A DNA stretch of 64,000 nucleotides from Desulforamulus ruminis DSM 2154 (GTDB lineage: Bacteria > Bacillota > Desulfotomaculia > Desulfotomaculales > Desulfotomaculaceae), in the NCBI RefSeq assembly GCF_000215085.1, contig NC_015589.1:496001-560000 (forward strand), given 5' to 3'. Shown here one piece after another: positions 38,033 to 57,116 of the stretch. The notes beneath the pieces were generated by a model that saw only the letters and a program-made list of their open reading frames with translations, searched no databases and was not told the DNA's origin. The number at the start of each line of letters is the position of its first letter. Positions within the stretch are counted from its first letter, which is position 1. A program made the position numbers and the translations under genes.

Positions 38033-38048
38033 TGATGTAACCTCCCGG

Positions 38049-40796: not shown

Positions 40797-43520
40797 ATGC
40801 TTAAAAAAGTTATTTACCTCAATGGAGTAAGCCGCTCATTAATCGTCAGTCCGGAAGCACTGCTGTCGGATGTAATTCGTAAGCAATTGCATCTAACCGG
40901 AACCAAGGTTGGTTGTGGTCAAGGTCAGTGTGGAGCCTGCTCGGTGATTATGGACGGGAAGGTCATCCGGTCCTGCGTGACCAAAATGAAAAGGGTTCCG
41001 GAAGGAGCCAGTATTACCACCATCGAGGGTCTGGGAACTCCGGATAATCTTCATGCCTTGCAACTGGCCTGGGCTGTTCACGGCGGCGCCCAGTGCGGTT
41101 TTTGCAGCCCCGGCTTTATTGTCTCAGCCAAGGGGCTTTTGGATCAAAACGCCAATCCTACCAGGCAAGAGGTGCGGGATTGGTTCCAGAAGCATAGAAA
41201 CGTTTGCCGCTGCACCGGTTATGTGCCTTTAGTTGATGCGGTGATGGATGCCGCCCGTGTTCTGCGCGGGGAAATCACCAAACAAGAATTAGCGTACAAA
41301 TTGCCGGAAGACGGTAAAATCTGGGGAAGCAAATACCCCCGTCCCACAGCCATTGCCAAAGTGACCGGCACCTGTGATTACGGTGCGGATCTCGGCATCA
41401 AGATGCCTTGCGGTACCCTACATTTAAAATTGGTTCAGGCCACGGTGTCTCATGCCAATATTCTTTCCATTGACACTTCCGAGGCTGAAAAAATGCCCGG
41501 CGTTTATAAAGTAATTACCCATAAGGATGTAATCGGGAAAAACCGCATTACCGGTCTGATTACCTTCCCCACCAACAAGGGCGATGGTTGGGACAGACCT
41601 ATCCTGTGCGATGAAAAGGTCTTCCAGTTTGGCGATGCCATCGCCATTGTGGCCGCAGACACCGAGGAAAACGCCCAGGCGGCGGTGGAAAAGGTAAAGG
41701 TCGAGCTTGAAATCCTGCCGGCTTATATGAGTGCCCCGGCAGCCATGGCGGACGATGCCATTGAGATTCACCCCGGCACGCCCAACGTCTATTTTGAACA
41801 AAAGATCGCTAAGGGCGAGGACACCAAAGAATACATGGAAAAAGCCGCCTATGTGGTGGAAGGCGAAAACTTTTATGTAGGACGTCAGCCTCACCTGCCC
41901 ATTGAGCCGGATGTTGGACTGGCTTATTTCGATGAAGAAGGTCGCTTGACCATCCATTCCAAGAGTATCGGTCTGGGCCTGCATGCGGCCATGATTGCGC
42001 CCGGCATTGGTATTGAACTGGAGAAATTAAGAATGATCCAGAATCCTGCCGGCGGTACCTTCGGCTACAAATTCAGTCCCACCATCGAAGCCTTGCTGGG
42101 GGTTGCCGCTCTGGCCACGGGCAAACCCGTCTACCTGAACTTCAATTACTACCAGCAAATTACCTATACCGGTAAGCGGTCACCTTTCTTTATGAACCTG
42201 AAATACGGTGCGGATAAAGACGGCAAGATTTTGGCCATGGAAAGTGAATGGACGGTAGACCATGGTCCCTACTCGGAGTTCGGGGATCTGCTGACCCTGC
42301 GGGGAGCCCAGTTCATTGGCGCCGGCTACGGCATACCCAATATTCGCGGTATTGGCCGCACGGTCTGCACCAACCATGCCTGGGGTTCCGCCTTCCGTGG
42401 CTACGGTTCACCCCAAAGCTTGTTTGCTTCCGAGTTGCTGATGGATATGCTGGCGGAGAAAATGGGGATGGATCCCCTGGAACTGCGCTACAAAAATGTT
42501 TACCGTCCCGGAGATACCCAGCCCAGCGGCAGCCCTCCGGAAGTATTTAGCCTGCCGGAACTGATTGATACCATTCGGCCCAAGTATCTGGAGGCCAAGG
42601 AAAGAGCGAAAAAGGAATCTACCCCCGAGAAGAAACGGGGTGTCGGGGTGTCCATCGGCGTATACGGCTGCGGTTTGGATGGCCCCGATGGCGCGGAAGC
42701 CTGGGCCGAACTGACCAAGGAAGGCGTCACCATCTTTACCTGCTGGCATGATCATGGCCAAGGAGCGGATATCGGTTGCCTGTCTACCGCCCATGAGGCC
42801 TTGCGGCCGGCGGGCATTAAGCCGCAAGACATCAAATTGGTACTAAATGATACCGGAGTTTGCCCGGACGGTGGTCCGGCCGGCGGCAGCCGTTCCCAGG
42901 TTCTGGTAGGCAATGCCATTAAAGCCAGTTGCGATCTGCTGGTGGCAGCCATGAAGAAAGCCGACGGCACTTATAAAACCTATGATGAGATGGTCGCTGA
43001 AGGAACTCCGCTGAAATATGTAGGAAAGTGGGCCGCTCCCTGCAAAGAATGTGATGAAAACGCTCAAGGCAATCCCTTCCCCACCTACATGTACGGTGTA
43101 TTCCTGGCTGAGGTTGAAGTGGATACCAAGACCGGTAAAACTCAGGTGGTGAAAATGACGCTGGCCGCGGACCCGGGTAAGATCGGCAACAAGCTGGCTG
43201 TGGACGGCCAGATTTACGGCGGACTGGCCCAGGGCATTGGTTTAGCCCTTAGTGAGGATTTTGAAGATCTGAAGAAACATACCACCATGGCCAACTGCGG
43301 TATCCCTTATATTAAGGATATTCCCGACGCCCTTGAGATTCTCTATGTAGAAACTCCCAGGGAATTGGGACCCCATGGAGCCTCCGGAGTGGGTGAATTG
43401 CCGTTAACCTCTCCTCATGTGGCCATTACCAACGCCATTTACAATGCCTGCGGGGTACGCATTACCCAACTTCCGGCTTTGCCCGAGAAGGTGCTGGCGG
43501 GGTTGAATGCTCTTAAATAA
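40797..43520 (+). CDS. mop: Molybdenum aldehyde oxidoreductase (Mop type, xanthine oxidase family)
   Basis: 907 residues, the same length as Desulfovibrio gigas Mop by recollection. The first [2Fe-2S] domain has Cys40, 45 and 48 (GCGQGQCGAC), the second has QCGFCSPGF and CRCTGY. The Mo-binding half follows, with GVGE near residue 867 as the catalytic glutamate. It oxidises aldehydes to acids using molybdopterin cytosine dinucleotide, without FAD. ATG 40797 follows AAAGGGGAGGG. The next gene starts 143 bases later after a terminator. Regulated with the upstream gene by R1. The natural aldehyde is unknown. Confidence 0.93.
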   Translation: MLKKVIYLNGVSRSLIVSPEALLSDVIRKQLHLTGTKVGCGQGQCGACSVIMDGKVIRSCVTKMKRVPEGASITTIEGLGTPDNLHALQLAWAVHGGAQCGFCSPGFIVSAKGLLDQNANPTRQEVRDWFQKHRNVCRCTGYVPLVDAVMDAARVLRGEITKQELAYKLPEDGKIWGSKYPRPTAIAKVTGTCDYGADLGIKMPCGTLHLKLVQATVSHANILSIDTSEAEKMPGVYKVITHKDVIGKNRITGLITFPTNKGDGWDRPILCDEKVFQFGDAIAIVAADTEENAQAAVEKVKVELEILPAYMSAPAAMADDAIEIHPGTPNVYFEQKIAKGEDTKEYMEKAAYVVEGENFYVGRQPHLPIEPDVGLAYFDEEGRLTIHSKSIGLGLHAAMIAPGIGIELEKLRMIQNPAGGTFGYKFSPTIEALLGVAALATGKPVYLNFNYYQQITYTGKRSPFFMNLKYGADKDGKILAMESEWTVDHGPYSEFGDLLTLRGAQFIGAGYGIPNIRGIGRTVCTNHAWGSAFRGYGSPQSLFASELLMDMLAEKMGMDPLELRYKNVYRPGDTQPSGSPPEVFSLPELIDTIRPKYLEAKERAKKESTPEKKRGVGVSIGVYGCGLDGPDGAEAWAELTKEGVTIFTCWHDHGQGADIGCLSTAHEALRPAGIKPQDIKLVLNDTGVCPDGGPAGGSRSQVLVGNAIKASCDLLVAAMKKADGTYKTYDEMVAEGTPLKYVGKWAAPCKECDENAQGNPFPTYMYGVFLAEVEVDTKTGKTQVVKMTLAADPGKIGNKLAVDGQIYGGLAQGIGLALSEDFEDLKKHTTMANCGIPYIKDIPDALEILYVETPRELGPHGASGVGELPLTSPHVAITNAIYNACGVRITQLPALPEKVLAGLNALK

Positions 43521-43575: not shown

Positions 43576-43624
43576 GGCTTCCGCTGCGCCAATAGGCTTG
43601 GCGGAAGCCAAGTTTTCTTTTTTA
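43576..43624 (+). terminator. Terminator after mop
   Basis: GGCTTCCGC pairs with GCGGAAGCC across a 16-base loop, followed by AAGTTTTCTTTTTT. It may be leaky, so that the maturation genes get some read-through. Confidence 0.8.
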
Positions 43625-43662
43625 GTTTTCTGCGAGAGAGAAGATGAATGGGGTGGGGGAGT

Positions 43663-45987
43663 ATGGAACAAAAGGAACTGAGGGAACTGGAGGACAAGTG
43701 TATTCAGGAACATCCCCCGGCTTGCACCGCCGCCTGTCCGATTCATGTGGACGCCAGGAGTTTTATAGCCCAAATGGCTAAAGGGGATTTTATTGCGGCT
43801 TATAAAATTATGCAAAAAACCATGCCTTTTCCCGGTATCCTGAGCAGAATCTGCGACCACCCCTGTCAGGATTTCTGTAAGCGCAAGGAGGCTGGAGATC
43901 CTATAGCCATTGCTGCTCTGGAAAAGGCCTGCGTTCAAATTACTGACGCCGGCCCCGCCAAAATGATGGCGCTGCCCAAGAAAAATAAGAAGGTAGCGGT
44001 TGCGGGGTCCGGTTTAAGCGGTTTAACCGTAGCCTTTGACCTGGCTAAAAAGGGCTATTGGGTGGTTATTTTTGAAGCCGGGGAGCGCCTGGGGGGCCGT
44101 CTGTGGGAAATTTCCGAGGACTACCTGCCGCCTCAAGTCATTACCGATGAATTGGCGATTTTAAATAAACTGGGTGTGGAAGTCCTTTTAAATAAAGAGG
44201 TTGGCAAAGATATTGCGCTGACCACCCTGTGTAAGGAATATGATGCCGTTTACCTGGGTTTAGGGGCCGAAGGGCATTCCTTTGATTTGCAAAGCGATGA
44301 CCAGGGAAAAATTGAGGTGGACCCGGTCACCTTTGCCACCAGCCGGGAGGGGGTTTTTGCCGGCGGCGGACTGCGGGCCGCCGGGGAACGCTATTCCCCC
44401 GTTGGATCGGTGGCCGACGGAAGGCGGGCCGCCATCTCCATAGACCGCTATTTACAGGGGGTATCCCTTACTGCCTCCCGGGATCATGAAGGTCCCTTTA
44501 CCACCCGCCTGTACACCAATGTGGGGGGGGTAGAACCGCTGGCGGCGGTTCCCATGGTCCACCCGGGGCAGTTTTACACCCGGCACGAAGCCATGCAGGA
44601 AGCCGATCGCTGTCTGCAGTGCCAATGCCTGGAGTGTGTCAAAGTTTGCGACTATTTGGCTCACTATAAAGGTTATCCTAAAAGATATCTGCGGGAGATT
44701 TACAATAACGAATCCATTGTTAAAGGGATACATCATGCCAATAAAATGATTAATTCCTGCAGCTTGTGCGGACTCTGCGCCGAGGTCTGCCCTCAGGGAT
44801 TGAATATGGGAGAAGTGATTAAAAGCGCCCGGGAGAGAATGGTGGCAAGGGGTAAAATGCCTCCTTCGGCCCATGATTTTCCCCTGCGGGATATGGAGTT
44901 CAGCAACAGCAAGAAATTTGCTCTGACCCGAAACCAGCCCGGCACAGGGAGCAGCCGGTACCTGTTTTTTCCCGGCTGTCAGTTGAGCGCCTCTTCTCCG
45001 GATCATATGGAGAAGGTTTATACTTATCTGGGGGAAAAGCTTGACGGTGGAGTGGGACTTATGCTGCGATGCTGCGGTGCTCCGGCGGAATGGGTCGGCC
45101 AAAAGGACCTTTTTCAGGCCGGTATACAGGAAATTGTAAAGCAATGGCAGGAAATGGATAGACCCCGGGTGATTGTAGCCTGTTCCAGTTGCTATCATAT
45201 CTATAAGACTTATTTGCCGGAAATCAATCTTCTGTCCCTGTGGGAGATCTATCACGAATTCGGGCTGCCGGAGTTACCGGACAGGGATTTTGGCCGTCTG
45301 GCCATCCATGACGCCTGTACCACCAGACACGAAAAGACCATTCATGACAGTGTCCGAGGGCTTTTGCAGCAGATGAACTGCCCAATCGAAGAGCTACCCC
45401 TAAGCCGGGAAACGGCCCAGTGCTGCGGTTTTGGAGGCCTCATGGCCTTTGCCAATCCTGAACTGGCCAAAGAGGTAACCCAACGGGTCACGGAAGAAAG
45501 CGATGCGGACTATGTTACCTACTGTGCCATGTGTAGGGACCGGTTTGCCGCCAGAGGCAAGCCCGCGCTGCATCTGCTGGATTTAATTTATGGCGGGGAT
45601 GCAAAGGATCCGTCCCTGCGCCAAGGACCAAGCTATTCCCAAAGGCGGGAAAACCGGGCCCGATTAAAAAATAAACTGCTGAAAGAGGTATGGAGAGAGA
45701 CCGTGGCCGAGGAAAAAGGATACCAGACCATTCCATTAATCATTTCCGAAAAGATTCGAGAGCTCATGGAAGATAGACTGATTTTAGTTGAAGATCTTCA
45801 GCGAGTCATTGAGTTCGCAGAACGGACAGGCAAGAAAATGTATCACCACCAAACCGGTCATTTTCTGGCCTACTACAAGCCGGTCAGTGTTACTTACTGG
45901 GTGGAATACACTCCCCGGAAAGATGGCTTTGTGGTCCATAATACCTATTGTCATAGAATGGAGATTATGGAGGAAGCGGAAGCATGA
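43663..45987 (+). CDS. Flavin-dependent pyridine-nucleotide oxidoreductase with Fe-S dicluster and CCG domains
   Basis: 774 residues from ATG 43663 after GGTGGGGGAG. N-terminal Cys region like glutamate synthase small subunit (CTAACPIHVDARSF, CDHPCQDFCKR), FAD motif VAVAGSGLSGLTVAFDLAKKG (about 110-140), 4Fe-4S dicluster (CLQCQCLECVKVCDY; CSLCGLCAEVCPQG), two HdrD-like CCG domains (LRCCGAPAEWVG and QCCGFGGLMAF), and a C-terminal unit. It matches the family called pyridine nucleotide-disulfide oxidoreductase/dicluster-binding protein next to mop in Desulfovibrio (DVU_1558 position). I infer that it passes electrons from the aldehyde oxidoreductase to a quinone/thiol carrier or NAD(P). Confidence 0.85.
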   Translation: MEQKELRELEDKCIQEHPPACTAACPIHVDARSFIAQMAKGDFIAAYKIMQKTMPFPGILSRICDHPCQDFCKRKEAGDPIAIAALEKACVQITDAGPAKMMALPKKNKKVAVAGSGLSGLTVAFDLAKKGYWVVIFEAGERLGGRLWEISEDYLPPQVITDELAILNKLGVEVLLNKEVGKDIALTTLCKEYDAVYLGLGAEGHSFDLQSDDQGKIEVDPVTFATSREGVFAGGGLRAAGERYSPVGSVADGRRAAISIDRYLQGVSLTASRDHEGPFTTRLYTNVGGVEPLAAVPMVHPGQFYTRHEAMQEADRCLQCQCLECVKVCDYLAHYKGYPKRYLREIYNNESIVKGIHHANKMINSCSLCGLCAEVCPQGLNMGEVIKSARERMVARGKMPPSAHDFPLRDMEFSNSKKFALTRNQPGTGSSRYLFFPGCQLSASSPDHMEKVYTYLGEKLDGGVGLMLRCCGAPAEWVGQKDLFQAGIQEIVKQWQEMDRPRVIVACSSCYHIYKTYLPEINLLSLWEIYHEFGLPELPDRDFGRLAIHDACTTRHEKTIHDSVRGLLQQMNCPIEELPLSRETAQCCGFGGLMAFANPELAKEVTQRVTEESDADYVTYCAMCRDRFAARGKPALHLLDLIYGGDAKDPSLRQGPSYSQRRENRARLKNKLLKEVWRETVAEEKGYQTIPLIISEKIRELMEDRLILVEDLQRVIEFAERTGKKMYHHQTGHFLAYYKPVSVTYWVEYTPRKDGFVVHNTYCHRMEIMEEAEA

Positions 45988-46196
45988 AGCAGGTACAGAA
46001 TCAACCGGAGCAAAAGAACTGGGAATGTGTGAAATGCGGGGTGTTCATGGAGCGGGGCAAAGTGAATATCAGCTATATGGGCAGCCAATTCCCCGTGGAA
46101 CTGTTGAAGTGCCCTAAATGCGGCCTTGTTTTCATACCCGAAGAACTGGTACTGGGAAAGATGGCCGAGGTGGAGAAATCCTTGGAGGATAAATAG
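45984..46196 (+). CDS. Small double-CxxC protein (DVU_1557-type redox protein)
   Basis: 70 residues. Two CxxC knuckles at Cys15/Cys18 (CVKCG) and Cys43/Cys46 (CPKCG) with hydrophobic strands between form a zinc-ribbon or rubredoxin-like unit. The start overlaps the stop of the previous gene (ATGA). It matches the gene placed between the oxidoreductase and methyltransferase in the Desulfovibrio cluster. Likely metal-binding; electron carrier or scaffold role is not shown. Confidence 0.75.
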   Translation: MKQVQNQPEQKNWECVKCGVFMERGKVNISYMGSQFPVELLKCPKCGLVFIPEELVLGKMAEVEKSLEDK

Positions 46197-46221
46197 CTGG
46201 ACCCTGGGGGGAGGAGAAATC

Positions 46222-46968
46222 ATGTTCACTGGGGAGAAATGCCGAGTTTATGAAGGCAGTGCCCTGCGCCAGGCCACCGGGGAAATCATTCGCCCCGGGG
46301 GATTTACCTTAACGGACCGGGCCGTTGGCTTCTGTGATTTTCGCCCCGGAGCCTCTGTACTGGACGTGGGTTGCGGCACCGGCGCCACGGTGGAGCACTT
46401 AATAAACCAATATCAGCTTAAGGCCGCCGGGGTTGATCCATCGGCGCTGCTGCTGGAACTTGGGCGGCGGCGAAACCCGGAGCTGTCTTTGATACAGGCC
46501 CAGGGGGAAAGTTTGCCCTTCCGGACTGGAGAAATGGAGGGCATTTTTGCCGAGTGTACACTATCGGTAATGGAGGATGTGGAACAGACTTTGCGGGAGT
46601 GTCACCGTGTTTTGCAGTCTGAAGGGTGGTTGATTGTAACGGATGTTTATGCCCGCCATGCGGAAGTCATCGGGGACTTGCGCAGTCTGCCTCTGGCCAG
46701 TTGCCTGACCGGAGCCATGTCCCGCCAGGGAGTGGAGGAAAAACTTCATCAGGCGGGCTTTCAAAGGGTCCTATGGGAAGATCATTCTCAAGTATTGAAA
46801 GATTTGGTCATCCAGTTAATTATGACCCACGGTTCCCTGGAGAACTTTTGGAGTAAAGCCAGTTCCGGAACAGCGGATGGCCGGTGGCTGCAACAGGTGA
46901 TCGCAAAATCCAAACCGGGGTATTTCTTATTAATTGCCCGCAAGAAGGGGGAGGGGCCTCATGTCTGA
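46222..46968 (+). CDS. trsM: Class I SAM-dependent methyltransferase (TrsM/DVU_1556-type)
   Basis: 248 residues from ATG 46222 after GGGGAGGAG. SAM motif I is VLDVGCGTGATVEHL; LPFRTGEMEGIFAECTLSVMEDV is the post-motif acidic region. The C-terminus ends GYFLLIARKKGEGPH. It lies between a CxxC protein and a C_GCAxxG_C_C protein, all with overlapping or adjacent ends. Gene name is by neighbourhood and memory of the Trs naming; the methylated target is unknown. Confidence 0.75.
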   Translation: MFTGEKCRVYEGSALRQATGEIIRPGGFTLTDRAVGFCDFRPGASVLDVGCGTGATVEHLINQYQLKAAGVDPSALLLELGRRRNPELSLIQAQGESLPFRTGEMEGIFAECTLSVMEDVEQTLRECHRVLQSEGWLIVTDVYARHAEVIGDLRSLPLASCLTGAMSRQGVEEKLHQAGFQRVLWEDHSQVLKDLVIQLIMTHGSLENFWSKASSGTADGRWLQQVIAKSKPGYFLLIARKKGEGPHV

Positions 46969-47413
46969 ACAAATGTTTCGCATGTTTGAACTGGCGCAAC
47001 AGGGCTTTTACTGCAGCCAGATTTTGCTGTTGTTGGGCCTGGAAGCCCAGGGTAAGGATAATCCGGATTTAATCAGAGCCATGTCCGGTTTAGCAGGGGG
47101 GTTGGGTTTTTCCGGCCAGACCTGCGGGGCTCTGACCGGCGGCGCCTGTTTACTGGGGTTATATGCCGGCAAAGGAACGCCCGGGGAAAATGAGCATCCC
47201 CGTTTTCAAATCATGGTGAATGAATTGGTGGACTGGTTTAAGGAAGAAGTGGGAAGTTCCTGTGGAGGAATTAACTGCGAGGATATTTTAGGTGAAGATC
47301 TTCAGTATAAAGTGGTGTCGGTTCAATGCGGCAATATTGTGAGCAGCACCTATGAAAAGGTCCGGGAGATTCTAATCAATAACGAAATTGATTTCGACGA
47401 GGCCCGGGAATGA
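46961..47413 (+). CDS. C_GCAxxG_C_C family protein (DVU_1555-type)
   Basis: 150 residues, ATG 46961 after GGGGGAGGGG. The family pattern is present: GFYCSQILL, TCGALTGGACLLGLYAG, SCGGINCEDIL and QCGNIV. Spaced cysteines suggest a redox-active or cluster-binding protein. It overlaps trsM by 8 bases and the radical SAM gene by 4. Related proteins often accompany redox enzymes; direct function unknown. Confidence 0.82.
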   Translation: MSEQMFRMFELAQQGFYCSQILLLLGLEAQGKDNPDLIRAMSGLAGGLGFSGQTCGALTGGACLLGLYAGKGTPGENEHPRFQIMVNELVDWFKEEVGSSCGGINCEDILGEDLQYKVVSVQCGNIVSSTYEKVREILINNEIDFDEARE

Positions 47414-48816
47414 GGGGTGAAGGAACTTCCCTGGACCGCACCGAAAGTCTTTGTCCCCGGTGCCTTAAAAGGATCCCCGCGGAGAAGGTGATGCGGGGGG
47501 ACAAAATCTATCTGGTCAAAAGCTGTCCCGAGCATGGCTCCTTTGAAGCGATACTCTGGCGCGGGCAGCCGGACTATCTCTCCTGGATCAGACCGAAAGT
47601 TCCTTCCCAGCCCAAAATTTGTTTTACCCAGGTGGAAAAGGGATGTCCCTTTGACTGCGGTCTTTGTCCCGGACACCGGCAGCATAGCTGTACGGTTTTG
47701 CTGGAGGTAACCCAGCGCTGCAATCTCACCTGCCCTCTTTGTTTTGCCGATGCGGGCCGTGAACCGGCCCGAGATCCCAGTCTGGAAAAGATCGGGGACT
47801 GGTATAAAACCATTCTGGCAGCCGGCGGGCCCTATAACCTTCAACTGTCCGGGGGAGAACCCACCTTAAGGGATGATCTGCCCGAGATTATCGACCTAGG
47901 GCGTTCCATGGGCTATTCTTTTATTCAGCTTAACACCAACGGTTTACGTTTAGCTGCGGAGGCCGCCTATGTTAAAAAGCTGAAGGATGCCGGATTAACC
48001 TCGGTATTTCTGCAATTTGACGGGACTGAGGACGATATTTACCAAAAATTAAGAGGCAGGCCCCTGGTTAAAGAAAAAATGCTGGCCATTAAACATTGTG
48101 CCGAGTACAACCTGGGAGTGATTCTGGTGCCAACTTTAGTGCCGGGGGTCAATGTCCATAATATAGGGGCCATTATTGAACGGGCCCTGGATTATCTGCC
48201 CATTGTGCGGGGTGTGCATTTCCAGCCGGTCAGCTATTTCGGGCGCTACCCCAAAGCGCCCGGAGAGGAAGACCGCATTACCATTCCCGAGGTGATCCGG
48301 GAAATTGCCGGGCAGAGCAAAGGACGTATCAAGACGGAGAATTTTAAACCGCCGGGATGCGAAAATTCCCTTTGTTCCTTCCACGGCAACTTTGTACTGA
48401 TGCCGGGGGGGGAACTCCGGTCCTGGTCCAAACATGTGGCCAAGAGCTGCTGCGGCAAGCCGGAAATAGCTGAAGAGGGGGCCAGGAAAGCCCGGAACTT
48501 TGTCGCTGCACACTGGTCCGCGCCCCGGGTGACCACCGTTGCCAATGTTGGCGGCCATGAGGAAGGTTTTGCCCTGTGGGATGCTTTCCTGGAGCGGATC
48601 CGCACGCACTCCTTCAGTATTTCCGGCATGGCTTTTCAGGATGTTTGGAATCTGGACCTGGAACGGTTAAGGGACTGCTGCATTCATGTACTGTCTCCCC
48701 AGGGTAAACTGATCCCTTTCTGTGCCTACAATTTAACCGATCCTTTGGGGCGGCCTCTATACCGAGACAGGAGGTCCGGTCATGGAAATAACACCTTTAC
48801 ACCGTTGGATTGCTGA
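47410..48816 (+). CDS. trsS: Radical SAM protein of the TrsS type (Cys form)
   Basis: 468 residues. Before the SAM domain come CPRCLKRIP and CPFDCGLCPGH; the cluster motif is CNLTCPLC (about 105), followed by LQLSGGEPTLR. A C-terminal region has CENSLCSFHG, SCCGKP, DCCIHV and FCAYNL. I recall this as the family NCBI calls radical SAM (seleno)protein TrsS, in which some members carry selenocysteine. All codons here are Cys (TGT/TGC); no in-frame TGA is present. Its substrate is unknown. Overlaps both neighbours. Confidence 0.75.
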   Translation: MRGEGTSLDRTESLCPRCLKRIPAEKVMRGDKIYLVKSCPEHGSFEAILWRGQPDYLSWIRPKVPSQPKICFTQVEKGCPFDCGLCPGHRQHSCTVLLEVTQRCNLTCPLCFADAGREPARDPSLEKIGDWYKTILAAGGPYNLQLSGGEPTLRDDLPEIIDLGRSMGYSFIQLNTNGLRLAAEAAYVKKLKDAGLTSVFLQFDGTEDDIYQKLRGRPLVKEKMLAIKHCAEYNLGVILVPTLVPGVNVHNIGAIIERALDYLPIVRGVHFQPVSYFGRYPKAPGEEDRITIPEVIREIAGQSKGRIKTENFKPPGCENSLCSFHGNFVLMPGGELRSWSKHVAKSCCGKPEIAEEGARKARNFVAAHWSAPRVTTVANVGGHEEGFALWDAFLERIRTHSFSISGMAFQDVWNLDLERLRDCCIHVLSPQGKLIPFCAYNLTDPLGRPLYRDRRSGHGNNTFTPLDC

Positions 48817-50119
48817 TAAGATAGGGGTAACCGGGGCCCATTTAACCAAAGCAAGACTTGAAGCATACCAGCTTGGAAAATTACAGGAAACCCTTCAACT
48901 GGCTCGCAACCACAGCGTCTTTTACCGGAAATCCCTGGCCGGTTTGCCCGGGGAGAACATTTCCAGCCTGGCAGAGCTAACCCGACTGCCTTTCACCACG
49001 GCAGAGGACCTTCATCAAAACCCGCTGCAATTTCTTTGTGTTTCCCAGGATCAAATTGACCGGGTGGTGACCCTGCAGACTTCAGGAACTACCGGGGAGC
49101 CGAAAAGGCTGTACTTTACCCGGGAGGATCAAGGGCTGACCATCGATTTTTTTCAGCAGGGCATGTCCACCCTGGTGAACCCCGGGGACAAAGTGCTGAT
49201 TCTGCTGCCGGGCGAACGGCCCGGCAGTGTTGGCGATCTGTTGGTAAGGGGGTTGCAGCAAATGGGAGCCAAAGGCATCCCCCACGGGCTGGTTCGGAAG
49301 CCGGGCCGAACCCTGGAGATCCTAAAAAAAGAAGAGATTGATGCTCTGGTGGGTATTCCCACCCAGGTGCTTTCCTTGGCCCGGTACCAGGAGCAGGGAG
49401 GCCGGTTGCCGGTTAAACTGAAGAGTGTCCTGTTAAGTACCGATCATGTTCCCCGGGCCATTATCCATGAACTGGAGCGTAGTTGGGGATGCCGGGTATT
49501 CAATCATTACGGGATGACGGAAATGGGCCTGGGGGGCGGAGTGGAGTGTGAGGCCCGGGCCGGCTGTCATCTAAGGGAAGCGGATCTTTATTTTGAAATC
49601 ATTGATTCAAAGACTAAGGAGCCACTTCCCCAGGGGGAGACCGGTGAAATTGTTTTTACCACCCTGACCCGGAAAGGGATGCCCTTAATCCGCTATCGTA
49701 CCGGCGATCAGGGCCGGTTTATTTCCGAGCCCTGTCCCTGCGGCACCTCTTTAAAAAGGTTGGAACTTGTGAAGGGCCGTCTGGAAGGCGAACGGCGGCT
49801 AACAGGTGGCGTCATAACCATGGAAGACCTAGATGAAGCGCTCTTTCCACTGGAAGACCTTACGGATTTCCAAGCGGTAATACTTCGTCAAGAAGGATCG
49901 GAAAAACTGCAAATTAAGGTTAAACTAGCGGCGGGGTGTAACCGTGATCTCCTGGAGGAGAAGATTTACCGGGCTTTGGAAACCATTCCCCTTATCAAGA
50001 TGGCCCTGCAGCAGGGGAAGCTGGGAATTGTACCGGGAATTTTGGAGCAAGAGGGCTCCGGAGAAGTTCGGGCTGTAAAAAGGAGCATTATAGACAGGAG
50101 AGGATGGGAAGAAAGATGA
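48782..50119 (+). CDS. AMP-dependent CoA ligase, PaaK-like (DVU_1553-type)
   Basis: 445 residues from ATG 48782 after AGGAGGT. The adenylation loop is LQTSGTTGEPKRLYF, then NHYGMTEMGLGGG and RYRTGDQGRF, typical of phenylacetate-CoA-ligase-like enzymes. A small C-terminal domain follows. It could activate a carboxylic acid made by the aldehyde oxidoreductase, or load an acyl group on a cluster component. It overlaps trsS by 35 bases and xdhC by 4. Confidence 0.85.
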   Translation: MEITPLHRWIADKIGVTGAHLTKARLEAYQLGKLQETLQLARNHSVFYRKSLAGLPGENISSLAELTRLPFTTAEDLHQNPLQFLCVSQDQIDRVVTLQTSGTTGEPKRLYFTREDQGLTIDFFQQGMSTLVNPGDKVLILLPGERPGSVGDLLVRGLQQMGAKGIPHGLVRKPGRTLEILKKEEIDALVGIPTQVLSLARYQEQGGRLPVKLKSVLLSTDHVPRAIIHELERSWGCRVFNHYGMTEMGLGGGVECEARAGCHLREADLYFEIIDSKTKEPLPQGETGEIVFTTLTRKGMPLIRYRTGDQGRFISEPCPCGTSLKRLELVKGRLEGERRLTGGVITMEDLDEALFPLEDLTDFQAVILRQEGSEKLQIKVKLAAGCNRDLLEEKIYRALETIPLIKMALQQGKLGIVPGILEQEGSGEVRAVKRSIIDRRGWEER

Positions 50120-51162
50120 TGAAGAAGCTGTACCGGAGCGCTTGGCAACTTATAAAAAATGGGGAGTGTTTTGTGCAGGCCACCGTCTTAACCCAGTCAG
50201 GCTCCTCCCCAAGGACTGCCGGAGCGAAAATGATTGTCCGGCAGGATCAATCCATTGTAGGAACCATTGGCGGCGGCCTGGTGGAAGCCGAGGTTCAAAA
50301 AATGGCCCAGGATATTTTTGAGACAAAGGAATCCATCATTCGCCAGTTTAATCTCACAGGAGCCCAGTCCGGAGAAATGGGTATGATTTGCGGTGGCAAA
50401 ATGGAAATCCTGGTGGAATACCTGGATGCGGCGGACCCCCTGCTGCACACCCTTTACCAGGACATTATCAAGGCCATTGAAACCGGGGAAAAGACGGTTT
50501 TAGTGACGCCTCTGTCCCAGAGAAAAAAGGATCAGGGGGCGGAAGCTTTTCTGATTAAAAACACCGGTTCCATCACCGGGCTTTTTAACGGCCCTGCTGC
50601 ATGGCTGGAAAGGCTGGCGGGGGCGGCCAAGGGAAAATATCCCCGGGTGGTTGTCCTGGAAGAAAACCGTTTTTTATTGGAACCCATCAACACCTACGGC
50701 ACGGTTTATATTTTTGGCGCCGGTCATGTATCCCAAAAACTGGCATTGCTCACCAGCATGGTGGATTTTGTAACCGTGATTTTGGATGATCGGGCGGCAT
50801 TTGCCAACCGGGAACGTTTTCCAACCGCCGACCGTGTAGTGGTATTGGAAAACTTTGAACAGGCCTTTACAAACCTGGGGATTAATGAAGAAAGCTATGT
50901 GGTGATTGTGACCCGGGGACATGCCCATGATCAAACCGTATTGGCCCAGGCTTTAAAAACCACTGCCTGTTATATTGGTATGATCGGCAGCCAGAAGAAG
51001 CGGGATACCCTTTACCGGGCCTTAAAGAAGCAAGGGTTTTCCGCCGAGGAATTGGCCAAGGTCTATGCTCCCATTGGATTGGACATTGACGCGGAAACAC
51101 CGGAGGAAATTGCCGTCAGTATAACCGCGGAGCTGATCAAAGTAAGGGCGGGGCAGAATTGA
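50116..51162 (+). CDS. xdhC: XdhC/CoxI family molybdenum hydroxylase maturation factor
   Basis: 348 residues. The N-terminal CoxI-like domain has GSSPRTAGAKMIVR and GTIGGGLVEAEV; a central MICGGKMEIL motif follows. The C-terminal Rossmann-like domain has YIFGAGHVSQKLALL and VIVTRGHAHDQTVL. XdhC proteins bind the Mo cofactor and help add the terminal sulfur before insertion in the hydroxylase. ATG 50116 overlaps the ligase stop (ATGA); an ATG at 50104 is too close to the GGAG site. Confidence 0.92.
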   Translation: MMKKLYRSAWQLIKNGECFVQATVLTQSGSSPRTAGAKMIVRQDQSIVGTIGGGLVEAEVQKMAQDIFETKESIIRQFNLTGAQSGEMGMICGGKMEILVEYLDAADPLLHTLYQDIIKAIETGEKTVLVTPLSQRKKDQGAEAFLIKNTGSITGLFNGPAAWLERLAGAAKGKYPRVVVLEENRFLLEPINTYGTVYIFGAGHVSQKLALLTSMVDFVTVILDDRAAFANRERFPTADRVVVLENFEQAFTNLGINEESYVVIVTRGHAHDQTVLAQALKTTACYIGMIGSQKKRDTLYRALKKQGFSAEELAKVYAPIGLDIDAETPEEIAVSITAELIKVRAGQN

Positions 51163-52286
51163 CGGGCACTGCGGCGAACCTTGCCGCCCTGGTCTTGGCA
51201 GCGGGGTTTTCCAGCCGCATGGGCCGCTTAAAATCCCTGTTGCCTTTAGGCGAGGCTACAGTGATTGAAAGATCCATTGGGAGCTTTCTGGAGGCAGGCG
51301 TTCAGGACGTCCGGGTGGTACTGGGGCACCGGTCCGAGGAAATTGCCCGGGTACTGGAAGCATCCGGGGTAACCACAATTATGAACCATGAGTATGAAGA
51401 GGGGATGTATTCCTCCATAAGAGCTGCCGTCCGTAGTTTGGAACCGAAAGTGGAAGCCTTTTTTCTGCTGCCGGGGGATCTGCCGTTGGTGCGCTGGCAA
51501 ACCGTGCAGCACCTAACTACGATTTTCGCAGAGAGCGGCAAAAGGATTATCTATCCCTGTTTTAATGGAGAGCGGGGTCATCCGCCCATTATTTCCACCC
51601 GCTATGCCCAGCATATTCTCTCCTGGCATGGGGAGGGAGGACTCAGAGCCCTGCTGAACCAATACGAAGATGACGCCCTGGATATTGAAATCGCAGACCC
51701 GGGGGTGCTGCTGGATATGGACACTCCGGAGGACTATCAAAGAGCGGTACAATGGTTTAAAAGGGGATATGTTCCTGCGGTTCAGGAATGTATGGATCTT
51801 TTAGAGGAATTAAAGGTTGACGGACGAATTGTGGAGCACGGCCGAGCGGTGGCACAGCTTGCCCGGAAATGGGCAATGATGTTGAACCAATGCGGGTGCA
51901 GGCTGAATCTTGACTTAATTCAAGCCGCGGGGCTGCTGCATGACCTGGCCAAAGGGAAGCCGGACCACGCCCGGGTGGGGGCCGATACACTCCGGGAACG
52001 AGGTTATCATGCGGTGGCTGAAATTGTTGCCGGGCATATGGACCTGGGACCGGAGGCGGATGCTGCCATTGATGAAAGAGCCATCCTTTTCTTAGCCGAC
52101 AAAATGGTGCAAGGAGTCCGGAGGATCCCCCTGGAGGAACGGTTTCAGGAGAAGCAAAAACGGTTTGCCGCAGAACCGGAAATATTGAAGAATATAAACC
52201 GCAGATTAAATCATGCCCTTGCAATCAAAGCAAGAATTGAAAATCTTCTGGGTTTTACCATTGAAACCATGGAACCACGAGGATAA
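51159..52286 (+). CDS. MocA-like nucleotidyltransferase fused to an HD domain (DVU_1551-type)
   Basis: 375 residues from TTG 51159, which overlaps the xdhC stop (TTGA). Residues about 8-190: LVLAAGFSSRMGRLKSLLPL and LLPGDLPLV, the NTP-binding loops of MobA/MocA enzymes, here expected to attach CMP to molybdopterin. Residues about 215-350: an HD domain with GLLHDLAKGKPDHARVG and ADKMVQG. The fusion suggests nucleotidyl transfer coupled to phosphohydrolysis or regulation. It is located between xdhC and a histidine phosphatase gene. Confidence 0.88.
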   Translation: MTGTAANLAALVLAAGFSSRMGRLKSLLPLGEATVIERSIGSFLEAGVQDVRVVLGHRSEEIARVLEASGVTTIMNHEYEEGMYSSIRAAVRSLEPKVEAFFLLPGDLPLVRWQTVQHLTTIFAESGKRIIYPCFNGERGHPPIISTRYAQHILSWHGEGGLRALLNQYEDDALDIEIADPGVLLDMDTPEDYQRAVQWFKRGYVPAVQECMDLLEELKVDGRIVEHGRAVAQLARKWAMMLNQCGCRLNLDLIQAAGLLHDLAKGKPDHARVGADTLRERGYHAVAEIVAGHMDLGPEADAAIDERAILFLADKMVQGVRRIPLEERFQEKQKRFAAEPEILKNINRRLNHALAIKARIENLLGFTIETMEPRG

Positions 52287-52303
52287 ACAAAAGGGGATAA
52301 GCT

Positions 52304-52918
52304 ATGGAACCCAGGCTAATTTATTTGATCCGCCACGGAATGATTGCTGTCAATGGCAGCAAACGTTTTATTGGACAGATTGACCTGCCCCTCAATGAAG
52401 AAGGAATCAATCAGGCCAAGCGTCTGCGGCAGGAACTAAGCTGTATCCGGTTCAGCAACATATACTGCAGTGACTTACAGCGTTCCGTACAGACGGCGGA
52501 AATCATTGCCGCCAAACATGGCCTCCAGCCTGTCATTTGCCCGGAACTGAGAGAGATCCGTTTGGGAGAATGGGAAGGCCGCTCCTTTGAAGAGATCAAC
52601 CGGAAGTATCCGGAAGAGTTTAAAGCCCGGGGCAGAGACATTGTCAACTATCAACCTCCCGGAGGGGAAAGTTTTGCCCATTGCAACCAAAGGATTTTGG
52701 ACAAGTTGGAGGAAATACTCGGTTCCACCTCAGGAAATATTTTAATTACAGGGCATGCCGGGGTGAACCGGTTAATTCTCTGCCGGGTGATGGGAATGCC
52801 TATACAAAACCTTTTTCGTGTCTGCCAGGATTACGGTTGTTTAAATTTAATTCTCTACGGAAATTTTGGTTATCGGCTAAAAAAACTAAATCAGGTATAC
52901 AGGATGATTCCTGTTTAA
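52304..52918 (+). CDS. Histidine phosphatase family protein, active-site complete
   Basis: 204 residues. The catalytic motif is LIRHGM (His about 11), with SDLQRSVQTAEII for the substrate arginine, LREIRLGEWEGRSFEEI for the proton donor and ITGHAGVNRLI for the second His. This is the CobC/phosphoglycerate-mutase-like branch. In this setting it may dephosphorylate a cofactor intermediate; that is inference. ATG 52304 follows AAAGGGG. Last gene of the run starting at 43663. Confidence 0.88.
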   Translation: MEPRLIYLIRHGMIAVNGSKRFIGQIDLPLNEEGINQAKRLRQELSCIRFSNIYCSDLQRSVQTAEIIAAKHGLQPVICPELREIRLGEWEGRSFEEINRKYPEEFKARGRDIVNYQPPGGESFAHCNQRILDKLEEILGSTSGNILITGHAGVNRLILCRVMGMPIQNLFRVCQDYGCLNLILYGNFGYRLKKLNQVYRMIPV

Positions 52919-53141: not shown

Positions 53142-53316
53142 CTATCTTCCGAGTTGCTGTTCCTAAAGCACTTCTTTTGTGCCATGGAACGGTATACCGG
53201 GGCAATGAGCGGCCCAAAGGGTTTAAAAGGGAAACCTTTAAGCCTCCCTGATGGAAAGGAAGCAAAGAATTTTTTGTTAGCGTCAATGTAAGCCGCTGTT
53301 TTGACAGCGGTTTTTT
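53142..53316 (+). promoter_or_regulatory. Divergent Moco/Tuco-family riboswitch with terminator (R3)
   Basis: CTTCCGAG (53144-53151), a long P3 region with TTGC/GCAA and GTTCC/GGAAC pairings, core AGGGTTTAAAAGGGAAACC, CCTCCCTGATGGAAAGGAAG (53241-53260). The terminator CCGCTG-TTTTGA-CAGCGG plus TTTTTT is at 53291-53314. The sequence is closely related to R4. It precedes the dead phosphatase, ModA-like and TOBE genes. The rest of 52919-53141 is AT-rich with a TTGACG at 53079. Confidence 0.8.
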
Positions 53317-53378
53317 GTTTTTATATCAGGCAGAGATCTTTTGTTGTGCAAATAACAGACGATAAGCAGGGAGAAAAA

Positions 53379-53993
53379 ATGGAACAGCGGTTAATTTACA
53401 TAATAAGAAACGGAGAGACCAATCCTAGAGGGAACGGGTTTTTTTTAGGTCAAACCGATTGGCCGTTAAGCGAAGAAGGGATAAAACAGGCGGAGCGTCT
53501 GCGGCAGGAACTGAGTTGCGTGCGTATTTCTCATATTTTCTGCAGTGATCTGCAGCGTTCTTTAAAAACAGCCCAAATGATTGCTGAAAAACAAAAAATA
53601 AACCCGGTGGCCCGCAAGGAGCTCCGGGAAATCAATCTTGGGGAATGGGATGGCCGCTCATTTGAAGAGATTAAAAGAAAATATCCTACAGAATTTAAAA
53701 ATCGCGGCAAGGATATTGAAAACTACCGGCCTCCCGGGGGAGAAAGTTTTGCTGATTGCAGCCATCGGGCAGTGACGGCCTATCATGAAATTCTCAATGG
53801 GACCAAAGGGAATCTCGTCATTACAGGACATGCCGGAATTAACCGGGTGATACTGTGTCATCTGCTGGATATCCCCTTAAAGAGTTTGTTTAAAATTACC
53901 CAGGACTACGGCTGTTTGAATCTCATATGGTACGGAAGTTTTGGTTACCGGCTGAGGGTATTTAACCGCATATTCAGGCGGGTACCCTATTAA
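53379..53993 (+). CDS. Histidine phosphatase paralogue lacking the catalytic histidine
   Basis: 204 residues from ATG 53379 after AGGGAG. It is a close paralogue of the gene at 52304 over the whole length. The RHG triad is changed to RNG (IIRNGET): codon AAC for Asn where the phospho-accepting His belongs. The second His (ITGHAGINRVI), the Arg and Glu regions are kept. I infer a protein that binds but does not turn over its substrate, perhaps a sensor or chaperone. Behind riboswitch R3. Confidence 0.85.
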   Translation: MEQRLIYIIRNGETNPRGNGFFLGQTDWPLSEEGIKQAERLRQELSCVRISHIFCSDLQRSLKTAQMIAEKQKINPVARKELREINLGEWDGRSFEEIKRKYPTEFKNRGKDIENYRPPGGESFADCSHRAVTAYHEILNGTKGNLVITGHAGINRVILCHLLDIPLKSLFKITQDYGCLNLIWYGSFGYRLRVFNRIFRRVPY

Positions 53994-54012: not shown

Positions 54013-54791
54013 ATGACAGCCCAAAATAAAATACAGTTGCAGCGGCCATGGTTCTCCGGAATGCGCTGATGGACATCAGAAAAATGTTTATGGAAAAGAA
54101 CAGCGGCCTTGATATTGCCGTTGAATTCGGTCCTTCAGGAGTTTTAAGCAGAAACATTGAAAAGGGCCAGGCGGTAGATCTTTTTATCTCTGCGGGACAA
54201 AAAGAAATAGACCGGTTGGCAGATAAAGGGTTCATTCTGCCTGATTCCCGGAAAAGTCTGGTGGGCAATCAAATGGTGGTCATGCTGAAAAAGGGCTTGA
54301 CCATGAATTATCTGGCCGATTTAACTACCGATCAATTTAGAAACATCGTCCTGCCCTTTCCAGATAAAGCGCCCTCCGGCAGATATGCCAAGGAGATGCT
54401 GATTCGCCTGGGTCTATGGGATGTCTTGACTGAAAAACAATATTTTGTTGATGACGTGAAACAGGTAGTTGAGGCCGTAGCCGGTGGAGAGGCCGATGCG
54501 GGATTTGCCTGGTATGCCGATATACAAGCAACACCCGGTTTGGACTATTATCGAATCCCCCAGGCCGCCTATGAGCCGGTTATGGTTACCGCAGCCCTCC
54601 CTTTATATGCTGAAAAAAATATTTCGGCTAAAAAGTTTTTGGAATATATTGCTTCGGAGGAAGGAATAATAACCCTTGAAAAGTATGGGTTTACCAGGCC
54701 GGAACAGGGGCAGGGCGCAAAAAGGCCCCATATCCTTTGGAAGTTCCTTACGCCCTCCTATGAGGACGATTTTGTAAATGCATTGCTTTAA
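54013..54791 (+). pseudogene. Leaderless ModA-like binding protein, apparently frameshifted near its start
   Basis: From 54030 the frame encodes NTVAAAMVLRNALMDIRKMF, then GPSGVLSRNIEKGQAVDLFISAG, SGRYAKEML and EADAGFAWYADI, the full ModA fold. The only start with a ribosome site (AGGGGGG) is ATG 54013, which reads MTAQNKIQLQ in another frame and stops at 54067-54069. One extra A in the A-run at 54028-54031 would join both frames to MTAQNKNTVAAAMVL. Either a base is lost or translation begins at ATG 54048 in the ModA core. No signal peptide exists in either case, so the product would be cytoplasmic. Confidence 0.65.
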
Positions 54792-54813
54792 ATAAAGCGA
54801 AGGAGTGGTAAAA

Positions 54814-55020
54814 ATGCAGCTCAGCACCCGCAATTTATTGAAGGGCCGGATTAAGACCATTAAATCCGATACGGTTTCCTCTGAAGTGGTTATGGACATC
54901 GGCGGTCCGGAGATCTGTGCCTTGATTACAACAGGGTCTGTCAACCGGATGGGATTAAAAGAGGGTGATGAAGTTGTGGCTATGGTTAAAGCAACTTCTG
55001 TTATGATTATGAAAGAATAG
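54814..55020 (+). CDS. mop: Single TOBE-domain molybdate-binding protein (molbindin)
   Basis: 68 residues from ATG 54814 after AAGGAG. LSTRNLLKGRIKTIKSDTVSSEVVMDIG and GLKEGDEVVAMVKATSVMI are the TOBE/Mop signature. Molbindins bind molybdate or tungstate between subunits and serve for storage or sensing. It lies in the R3 transcript. The ModC protein in the next operon lacks its own TOBE domain, so this protein could substitute. Confidence 0.9.
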   Translation: MQLSTRNLLKGRIKTIKSDTVSSEVVMDIGGPEICALITTGSVNRMGLKEGDEVVAMVKATSVMIMKE

Positions 55021-55080
55021 TGCCATTACTTATTATATAAAAGATATTCATATCCATAATATGACCTTGGTGTTTGTTTT

Positions 55081-55203
55081 TGCATTTATATTTATGATGC
55101 ATATAGCAAACATTTTTTTGTTGCATCTATAATCATGGCGCACTTAGCCTTTGTTTTATTTCTGCATTTATGCTTGCGACGCATATAGTAAATATTTTGT
55201 ATA
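55081..55203. repeat. Three tandem 41-bp repeats upstream of modABC
   Basis: TGCATTTAT (55081), TGCATCTAT (55122) and TGCATTTAT (55163) recur at exactly 41 bases. Each is followed by a spacer and GCATATAG or GCGCACTTAG. The third unit ends over a TATACT that could be the -10 box (55200-55205). The arrangement suits an operator array on one DNA face. No ORF. Confidence 0.75.
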
Positions 55204-55299
55204 CTATTGTCTAATGTGTTGCTTTAAAGTGAATTTTTTGTTATTTTATTAAGTAAGTAATGTTGAAATTTTGTATAAATATTGCGGTCAGGCGGTTGG

Positions 55300-55482
55300 T
55301 TACTTTCTGACCGGCTTTTGAGCAGATGTTCCTAAAGCATGGCCAGGGGATATTTGTCGGGCAATGCGGCCCAAAGGATCTGAACGGAAACGTTGATCCC
55401 TTCCTTTCAAGAAAGGAAGACAATAGCATACTTTTTAGCGCCAATGAAGTGCCGCTGCCAGAAAATGCAGCGGTTTTTTATT
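55300..55482 (+). promoter_or_regulatory. Divergent Moco/Tuco-family riboswitch with terminator (R4), upstream of modABC
   Basis: It aligns with R3: GTTCCTAAAGCA, GGGCAATG, GCGGCCCAAAGG, GGAAAC core and the linker before the terminator are shared. The core hairpin is GGATCTGAAC-GGAAAC-GTTGATCC, and the last aptamer helix is CTTCCTTTC-AA-GAAAGGAAG. The CTCCGAG box is degenerate (CTTTTGAG, 55315). Terminator CCGCTGC/GCAGCGG plus TTTTTTATTTTTT at 55452-55486. Confidence 0.7.
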
Positions 55483-55611
55483 TTTTAAGATTAGCACTGA
55501 TTTCTTGTGTCTGCGCAGGTAATAAACAGGCTGCCGACGGTAGATGAAAGGATGTGATATTTGAAGGCTCGGCTGTTCATTCTATATTTAAAGATGACGG
55601 GAGGAGAAAAA

Positions 55612-56415: not shown

Positions 56416-56430
56416 CCCTATGGTATTAAG

Positions 56431-57102: not shown

Positions 57103-57116
57103 AGTACGGTGATGTA

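Follow-up and report, generated by a model that had tools for sequence, protein, structure and literature searches.

The trs cassette beside a molybdenum aldehyde oxidoreductase in Desulforamulus ruminis: a partner-swapping module that may pass electrons to a thiol carrier

Aldehyde oxidoreductases (AORs) of Desulfovibrio contain an ordinary molybdopterin cytosine dinucleotide (MCD) cofactor and two [2Fe-2S] clusters, and have no FAD (PMC12316806). Here we analyze the genes that accompany an enzyme of this family, Mop, in Desulforamulus ruminis DSM 2154, a member of the Bacillota whose genome forms a single contig of 3.97 Mb. The window, that is, the whole stretch of DNA analyzed, spans 64,000 nucleotides (contig positions 496001-560000). 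Downstream of mop (40797-43520) lie nine same-strand open reading frames (43663-52918), encoding in order a flavin and Fe-S protein (Hub), a small CxxC protein (Zr), an S-adenosylmethionine (SAM) methyltransferase (MT), a cysteine-motif protein (CGC), the radical SAM enzyme TrsS, an adenylate-forming ligase (Lig), XdhC, a MocA-like nucleotidyltransferase with an HD domain (NTP) and a histidine phosphatase (Pase). We tentatively propose that the electrons taken from aldehydes go through Hub to a thiol/disulfide carrier of its own kind, that TrsS, MT and Lig are the likely builders of this carrier, and that XdhC and the MocA-HD protein mature the Mo cofactor.

Several described systems resemble parts of this cassette. 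The tetraether lipid synthase Tes (MJ0619; structure 7TOL) binds its metals through C9-X2-C12-X20-C33-X2-H36, C73/C77/C80 plus a histidine, and a labile Met439, and forms an intermediate bond between a substrate carbon and a cluster sulfur (PMC9433317); TrsS shares its fold and metal ligands. In the sHdr system (PMC10332631), an Hdr-like complex works with a lipoate-binding protein, a thiol carrier built by radical SAM sulfur insertion and ligation enzymes. We use it as a working analogy for trs, but the Pfam and NCBIfam matches of the trs operon include no lipoyl domain, LipA or LipS, and TrsS belongs to another radical SAM family. With HdrB/HdrD and TfrAB, Hub shares two complete CX~31-35CC...CXXC motifs beside a dicluster, and one class of Mop-less operon pairs an HdrD-like chain with TfrA- and SdhB-like subunits. 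Unlike those proteins, Hub adds a GltD-type FAD part and an 88-aa C-terminal domain (Ctd); it gives no HdrD equivalog match, there is no coenzyme M or B pathway, and the window holds no TfrA.

The cassette itself is known as the NCBIfam trs (DVU_1551-1559) set, which provides names without a mechanism. Products were assigned by Pfam and NCBIfam profile searches, each NCBIfam model being used with its curated cut-off. All eight trs proteins of the window and the adjacent Mop exceed the cut-offs of their own equivalog or exception models (NF045663, NF045645, NF045667, NF045669, NF045646, NF045666, NF045664 and NF045665; Mop, NF045668), and the phosphatase has no dedicated model. Those names do not cover three findings reported below: versions of the cassette without Mop, the loss of the NAD(P) domain, and paralogues linked to selD. 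In the literature on DVU_1551-1559 we found only DVU_1559, in proteomics tables, and TrsS, as a table entry in a 2026 selenoproteome review; in published AOR work, as far as it could be searched, the trs operon of relatives plays no part. A preliminary description of the window had called the set an uncharacterised system, which is right in that no function has been described, but the set had already been noticed, by NCBI in its curated models and, for TrsS, in that review.

The trs genes are associated with Mop more than by chance. Among 150 Bacillota-related genomes, TrsS scores above cut-off in 32 and Mop in 30, with both in 29, TrsS only in 3 and Mop only in 1; two of these four exceptions are ~70% complete metagenome-assembled genomes, of which one contains a partial Mop, and in a third TrsS is present only in sub-cutoff pieces. 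The corresponding counts in 297 Desulfobacterota-side genomes are 24, 8 and 1 (Fisher p ~2e-26 and ~2e-27, respectively, kinship among genomes being ignored in these and the following values). TrsS, Lig, MT and Hub track one another and Mop (p between about 1e-24 and 1e-27). Of the first 100 relatives, 25 have TrsS; Lig is present in these 25 and in no others, MT in 24 of them and Hub in 21, while the XdhC type is looser (21 of the 25, plus one genome without TrsS). The preliminary description had proposed phylogenetic profiling and named a lack of co-occurrence as refuting its view; the profiling gave strong co-occurrence of TrsS and Mop, 29 against 4 and 24 against 9. The order Mop-Hub-Zr-MT-CGC-TrsS-Lig, often followed by XdhC-NTP-Pase, is found across 80 named loci of Chloroflexota, Desulfobacterota and Bacillota, including Clostridium ljungdahlii, C. 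carboxidivorans, Sporomusa and Desulfosporosinus. Where the order is broken, it splits by module, for example into {MT, CGC, TrsS, Lig} and {MoeA, Mop, Hub, Zr} in locus L074 (L and G numbers denote loci and genomes). Even in 26 genomes picked mainly for Mop being missing or distant in the fetched stretch, a Mop-family match was present somewhere in 24 and above cut-off in 20.

Hub (43663-45987; NF045663, 1113 bits) combines in one chain a GltD-type [4Fe-4S]/FAD N-terminus, a 4Fe-4S dicluster, two HdrB-type CCG motifs (C439...CC470...C507xxC510 and C552...CC587...C621xxC624) and the conserved Ctd (45721-45984). Its alignment to the GltD/NfnL-type protein 9BOV skips residues 288 to 446, so that the NAD(P)-binding Rossmann domain of GltD/NfnL is missing. 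This segment is found in none of 85 Mop-linked full hubs and in only 2 of 93 full-length hubs. The two hubs that bear it adjoin a TfrA/SdhA-type flavoprotein and match NF009410 with 455 bits over the whole GltD part; in one Mop-less class the hub, of 831 aa, is without Ctd but has its NAD(P) domain intact. Elsewhere in Mop-less loci, Hub is split into an HdrD-like protein (~370 aa) and a separate Ctd protein. It seems fairly safe to conclude from these alignments that the FAD of Mop-linked hubs exchanges electrons with Mop instead of NAD(P)H. On the acceptor side, the ten CCG cysteines are invariant in 63 loci and both HdrB/HdrD-type motifs are complete, which argues for a thiol carrier. Ctd itself belongs to no Pfam family and has no sequence relative in the PDB, and its predicted model (pLDDT 91) gave no significant fold match; a HigB2-type toxin fold, the best match at E 0.039, was treated as chance.

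The Mop-less operons that we read are of three kinds. Class A (L285-L287, with L237 and L239 in part) has a TRAP transporter, SdhB-like and TfrA-like subunits, Ctd, Zr, MT, TrsS and Lig, together with an NAD(P)-containing hub or HdrD, a corrinoid protein and a RACo-like activase; the joint presence of HdrD-like, SdhB-like and TfrA-like proteins in one operon resembles thiol:fumarate reductase and is a further argument for a thiol carrier. Class B (L288-L293) carries pathway genes for an acyl-CoA ligase, an enoyl-CoA hydratase, an old yellow enzyme (OYE) and a 3-hydroxyacyl-CoA dehydrogenase, along with a formate-dehydrogenase-like molybdopterin protein, an FmdE-like protein, Ctd, Zr, MT, CGC, TrsS and Lig. 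Class H (L235 and L240) has an HdrD-like protein, two to three subunits of the 2-hydroxyglutaryl-CoA-dehydratase type with their activase, Ctd, Zr, MT and TrsS, with Lig in L240. XdhC, NTP and Pase are in none of the Mop-less stretches examined. The separable core is therefore Ctd-Zr-MT-TrsS-Lig, frequently with CGC. A quick tree of TrsS calls for three changes in the Mop label, two of them forced by strongly supported branches. A single alternative partner common to all Mop-less loci was sought and rejected, as there are at least three different ones. These comparisons of sequence show that the cassette is not specific to Mop and that the core is inherited as a unit that swaps its oxidoreductase partners. 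The exclusive link to Mop assumed in the preliminary description is thus not supported, since the core is kept beside three other oxidoreductase types without Mop, XdhC, NTP or Pase. Its reading of the methyltransferase, radical SAM protein and ligase as a biosynthetic module fares better: these genes are separable and look biosynthetic, and a cofactor or thiol carrier continues to be the most promising idea, although without the exclusivity and without a modification of Mop.

TrsS (DVU_1554 type; 47410-48816; NF045646, 707.4 bits, cut-off 490) is a relative of Tes both by sequence (298.8 bits to 7TOL) and by its AlphaFold model (pLDDT 79; TM 0.77, E 6e-40). It keeps the metal ligands of Tes: those of the rubredoxin Fe site (C15-X2-C18-X20-C39-X2-H42) and of the N-terminal [Fe4S4] cluster (C79/C83/C86 plus H89), and the equivalent (M407) of the labile Met of the C-terminal cluster, at which Tes forms its C-S intermediate, all invariant in our alignment, as well as the radical SAM cluster in the CX3CX2C motif (C104/C108/C111). 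In contrast to Tes, however, it has V427 in place of the catalytic Tyr459, which archaeal Tes proteins conserve; among 90 motif-matching homologues this position is V, T, I, A, N or E and never Tyr (37 were unscored). It also has the extra invariant C94 and C322 and a shorter stretch linking the SAM domain to the C-terminal cluster domain. With 353.2 bits, TrsS stays below the Tes model cut-off of 450, and as Tyr459 is also missing, an assignment as tetraether lipid synthase was rejected. Because the metal ligands, including the labile Met, are kept and Tyr459 is not, C-S chemistry is suggested, and by analogy TrsS may stop at the Tes intermediate and so deliver a C-S bond.

Selenium and sulfur genes occur around TrsS and its relatives. 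Selenocysteine-containing TrsS has been reported in the selenoproteome review; in our scanned loci the aligned part of TrsS is free of in-frame TGA codons, and we do not regard TrsS as a selenoprotein here. The TGA/TAA codons near the ends of a paralogue, TrsS' (G047/G071), are ordinary stops ahead of the gene for MT', an MT paralogue. In 6 of 7 loci this pair, with scores of about 360-385 bits for TrsS' and about 130-145 bits for MT', is accompanied by the selenophosphate synthetase SelD, and in all 7 by a NapH-like membrane Fe-S protein. The resulting four-gene unit of selD, TrsS-like, ArsM-like MT and NapH-like genes (L295-L299, L301, L302) is found in Bacillota, mostly without Mop, and is possibly a separate selenium system. 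Sporomusa-type trs operons, in turn, contain a cysteine desulfurase; this and the SelD pairing suggest that TrsS and MT have to do with the chemistry of sulfur or selenium. A lone divergent TrsS beside a CobW-like GTPase gene was also seen (L245:8801-10078, reverse strand; L246:8774-10051, forward strand), in genomes that have a normal trs operon as well.

Zr (DVU_1557 family; 45984-46196; NF045645, 102.2 bits, cut-off 60) is a 70-aa CxxC...CxxC protein of zinc-ribbon or rubredoxin-like type. It ends exactly in -EDK in 104 of 109 homologues, and four of the five exceptions are Mop-less. Since this free end is conserved across phyla, it suggests a recognition or attachment site at the C-terminus. 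MT (DVU_1556 family; 46222-46968; NF045667, 262.4 bits, cut-off 155) is partly ArsM-like, reaching 54.6 bits against the ArsM model NF008823 (cut-off 263). Its Cys112 is present in 106 of 106 homologues and Cys161 in 80%; by residue offset rather than exact alignment, both lie near the metalloid-binding cysteines of ArsM. CGC (DVU_1555 family; 46961-47413; NF045669, 192.9 bits, cut-off 103), a putative redox protein with the C-GCAxxG-C-C motif, has four cysteines (18, 55, 106 and 123) that are at least 99% conserved, and no PDB relative by sequence. Lig (DVU_1553 family; 48782-50119; NF045666, 501.2 bits, cut-off 300) is PaaK-like, with conserved adenylation motifs and 141 bits to phenylacetate-CoA ligase 4R1L, but remains far below the cut-off of the PaaK equivalog TIGR02155 (134.1 bits against 646).

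The window Mop (NF045668, 1702.9 bits, cut-off 1100) is a single-chain enzyme with two [2Fe-2S] clusters and no FAD domain, and matches the Desulfovibrio-type model over its full length. Likewise over its full length, it scores 1467 bits to the D. gigas AOR 1SIJ and 1411 bits to the D. desulfuricans enzyme 1DGJ, and shows nothing distinctive in comparison with them. An even closer relative of 1DGJ (1920 bits, full length) is encoded in genome G365, where MoeA-Mop-Hub-Zr-MT-CGC-TrsS-Lig-NTP-Pase stand in a row (L262). Because this Mop, of a group with ordinary MCD, sits in a trs operon, a Trs modification visible on Mop is unlikely, and modification of Mop or its cofactor by Trs was rejected as contradicted by it. 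The preliminary description had suggested a modified cofactor, peptide or carrier working with Mop; taken as a visible modification of Mop, this is not supported, although a loosely bound or lost Mop ligand may be compatible with the same argument.

Taken together, the best explanation of these observations would treat the trs cassette as a transferable electron-acceptor module. It is based on the absence of the NAD(P) segment from all 85 Mop-linked hubs and its intactness beside the TfrA/SdhA-type flavoprotein, on the persistence of the core when Mop, XdhC, NTP and Pase are lost, with at least two forced partner changes, and on the chalcogen neighbours, cysteine desulfurase and SelD. The lack of a convincing membrane helix in every operon product and the hairpin at mop described below also speak for it. 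Electrons would flow, fairly safely, from the aldehyde to Mo, to [2Fe-2S], to the Fe-S clusters and FAD of Hub and on to the predicted noncubane [4Fe-4S] site. Plausibly, the HdrB-type site would then reduce (or form) the disulfide of a thiol carrier that is either small or bound to Zr or CGC. The biosynthetic steps are speculative: Lig might activate a carboxylic acid or a protein carboxylate, TrsS might form a C-S bond through its C-terminal auxiliary cluster, as Tes does on the way to its product, and the thiol that results might be the substrate of the ArsM-like MT. XdhC and MocA-HD would mature and insert the MCD cofactor of Mop, and Pase probably assists this branch. Several points weigh against this explanation. 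The two NAD(P)-containing hubs are near relatives and amount to one contrast, or one evolutionary event. The Class B stretches keep the core but contain no CCG protein, which means that not every version of the cassette has the HdrB site. Proteins of the CCG type can also serve in quinone reduction or in electron transfer alone. Flavodoxin has been proposed as the electron partner of the D. gigas AOR. The acid, the carrier and the product are named by no result here, and it is on the identity, and even the existence, of the postulated carrier that the explanation is weakest. Mop is, moreover, reported to work with external electron-transfer proteins (PMC12316806).

A more far-reaching version, which we regard as rather improbable, is that Trs makes a new thiol or selenol electron carrier of anaerobic bacteria, a functional counterpart of the coenzyme M/coenzyme B pair, with the Tes-family TrsS stopping at the C-S or C-Se stage and interchangeable oxidoreductases feeding the carrier through the HdrB-type site; the donors would then be the Mo aldehyde oxidoreductase and enzymes of fumarate-reductase-like, formate-dehydrogenase-like and double-cubane type. 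Three rival explanations were also considered. The near-perfect co-occurrence with Mop, and the presence of XdhC, MocA-HD and MoeA in the same operon, would suit an operon devoted wholly to Mop maturation, in which TrsS, MT, Lig, CGC and Zr join XdhC and MocA-HD in finishing or mending the Mo site or its S/Se ligand, and Hub supplies electrons for this; the cysteine desulfurase of Sporomusa-type operons (EF2568-type) and the SelD gene adjoining the paralogous radical SAM/MT pair are in line with it. We nevertheless consider it unlikely, as at least three settings have kept the core but not Mop, XdhC or NTP, a Mop close to the D. desulfuricans crystal protein, of an enzyme group with ordinary MCD, is found in a trs operon, and Mop and Hub copies outnumber those of TrsS in some genomes.

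The chances are smaller still that the cassette is a catabolic module, in which Mop oxidizes an aldehyde, Lig makes the CoA ester, TrsS and MT rework the carbon skeleton or a methyl group, and Hub disposes of the electrons. It draws on the acyl-CoA ligase, enoyl-CoA hydratase, 3-hydroxyacyl-CoA dehydrogenase and OYE enzyme of some Mop-less operons, on the TRAP transporter with corrinoid protein and RACo-like activase, or the dehydratase subunit HGD-D and activase, of others, and on the Fe-type alcohol dehydrogenase beside Desulfosporosinus operons. However, Mop-linked operons of three phyla contain none of these catabolic genes, a ligase-like protein is present even beside a second, full acyl-CoA ligase, and the invariant part does not vary with the pathway around it, as one would expect of a common cofactor rather than of a common substrate. 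A comparably small probability is given to Hub being a plain electron partner of Mop that delivers to ferredoxin, flavodoxin or menaquinone, while TrsS, MT, Lig, CGC and Zr modify a residue of Hub or Zr, such as the Zr C-terminus. The strict -EDK of Zr (104 of 109 homologues) and the presence of Ctd and Zr with the core in every class examined would agree with such a modification, and CCG proteins related to Hub include the quinone-linked LdhH; but TrsS and MT also accompany the four Mop-less Zr proteins without -EDK, plain transfer would not need two complete CCG motifs such as Hub has, and there is no membrane partner.

The layout of the operon agrees with the preliminary description, which had reported a nine-gene overlapping operon with six overlapping junctions: these are exact (Hub/Zr -4, MT/CGC -8, CGC/TrsS -4, TrsS/Lig -35, Lig/XdhC -4 and XdhC/NTP -4 bp), while Zr/MT (+25 bp) and NTP/phosphatase (+17 bp) do not overlap. 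Its family calls were right and are sharpened here by NCBIfam models for all but the phosphatase, including those of the XdhC-type maturation factor (50116-51162; NF045664, 445.4 bits, cut-off 350) and of NTP (DVU_1551 family, NTP_transf_3 plus HD; 51159-52286; NF045665, 456 bits, cut-off 315). Overall, its observation is confirmed and its interpretation partly supported. It had also held that the proteins must be made in a fixed ratio. The overlaps suggest only translational coupling, and mop is separated from Hub by a 142-bp gap, passed over in that description, with a terminator-like hairpin (43576-43609) and T-tract, together 43576-43625 on the forward strand (-27.2 kcal/mol, z -4.2 on folding). 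Because of this hairpin, Mop and the Trs proteins are probably made in different amounts; mop ahead of its own hairpin is as expected if the remaining genes are needed in smaller amounts. Hairpins of -12 kcal/mol or stronger with a T-rich tail were found in 36 of 61 other mop-Hub gaps, counted without a shuffle control. Taken as a whole, a scan for promoter and terminator patterns was not above chance, and only the mop-Hub hairpin stood out on folding.

Around the operon, a MoeA-like molybdopterin-binding gene (MoCF_biosynth, PF00994, 79.3 bits; 39699-40724, forward strand) lies upstream of mop and adjoins Mop in many other loci. Pase, a CobC-like histidine phosphatase (52304-52918; PF00300; TIGR03162, 179.8 bits, cut-off 162.9), is a recurrent neighbour of NTP and is present in 37 of the 80 named loci. 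A second histidine phosphatase 3' of the operon (53301-53993, forward strand) resembles it and looks like a recent duplicate. Judging from translations, two tandem TupA-like (tungstate-binding) frames lie upstream (37157-38978, reverse strand) and ModA/ModB/ModC-like frames downstream (54048-57806, forward strand); with oxyanion transport on both flanks, the region looks like a Mo/W island. Other loci show further variation. Genome G040 (L244, L271, L272) has six Hub matches, five Mop copies over cut-off and one frameshifted TrsS, and G087 (L269), with a truncated second TrsS, likewise has multiplied trs/mop copies with decay. A DUF5714 protein stands between Lig and TrsS in one operon variant (L243:7251-7991, forward strand) and probably in L248. 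Nine loci (L071:5578-6300 and similar ones in Chloroflexota) have a DUF364/DUF4213 putative heavy-metal-chelation protein in the trs/mop region. Mostly in Desulfosporosinus loci, an iron-containing alcohol dehydrogenase directly follows the cassette (e.g., L083:15966-17123), which fits a route from alcohol to aldehyde to acid via Mop.

In short, Mop of Desulfovibrio, which is among the best-studied molybdenum hydroxylases and has solved structures, travels almost obligately with a functionally undescribed cassette. The loss of the NAD(P) domain from Mop hubs, and the retention of the core with other enzymes, constitute a natural experiment on the true electron acceptor of Mop. As D. vulgaris Hildenborough, a laboratory strain that is easy to work with, carries the trs set, a direct test of this acceptor is feasible there. 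If the cassette does make a new thiol or selenol carrier, it would count among the basic cofactors in acetogens, sulfate reducers, syntrophs and Anaerolineae, and the Tes family would be extended by a new reaction, that of TrsS.

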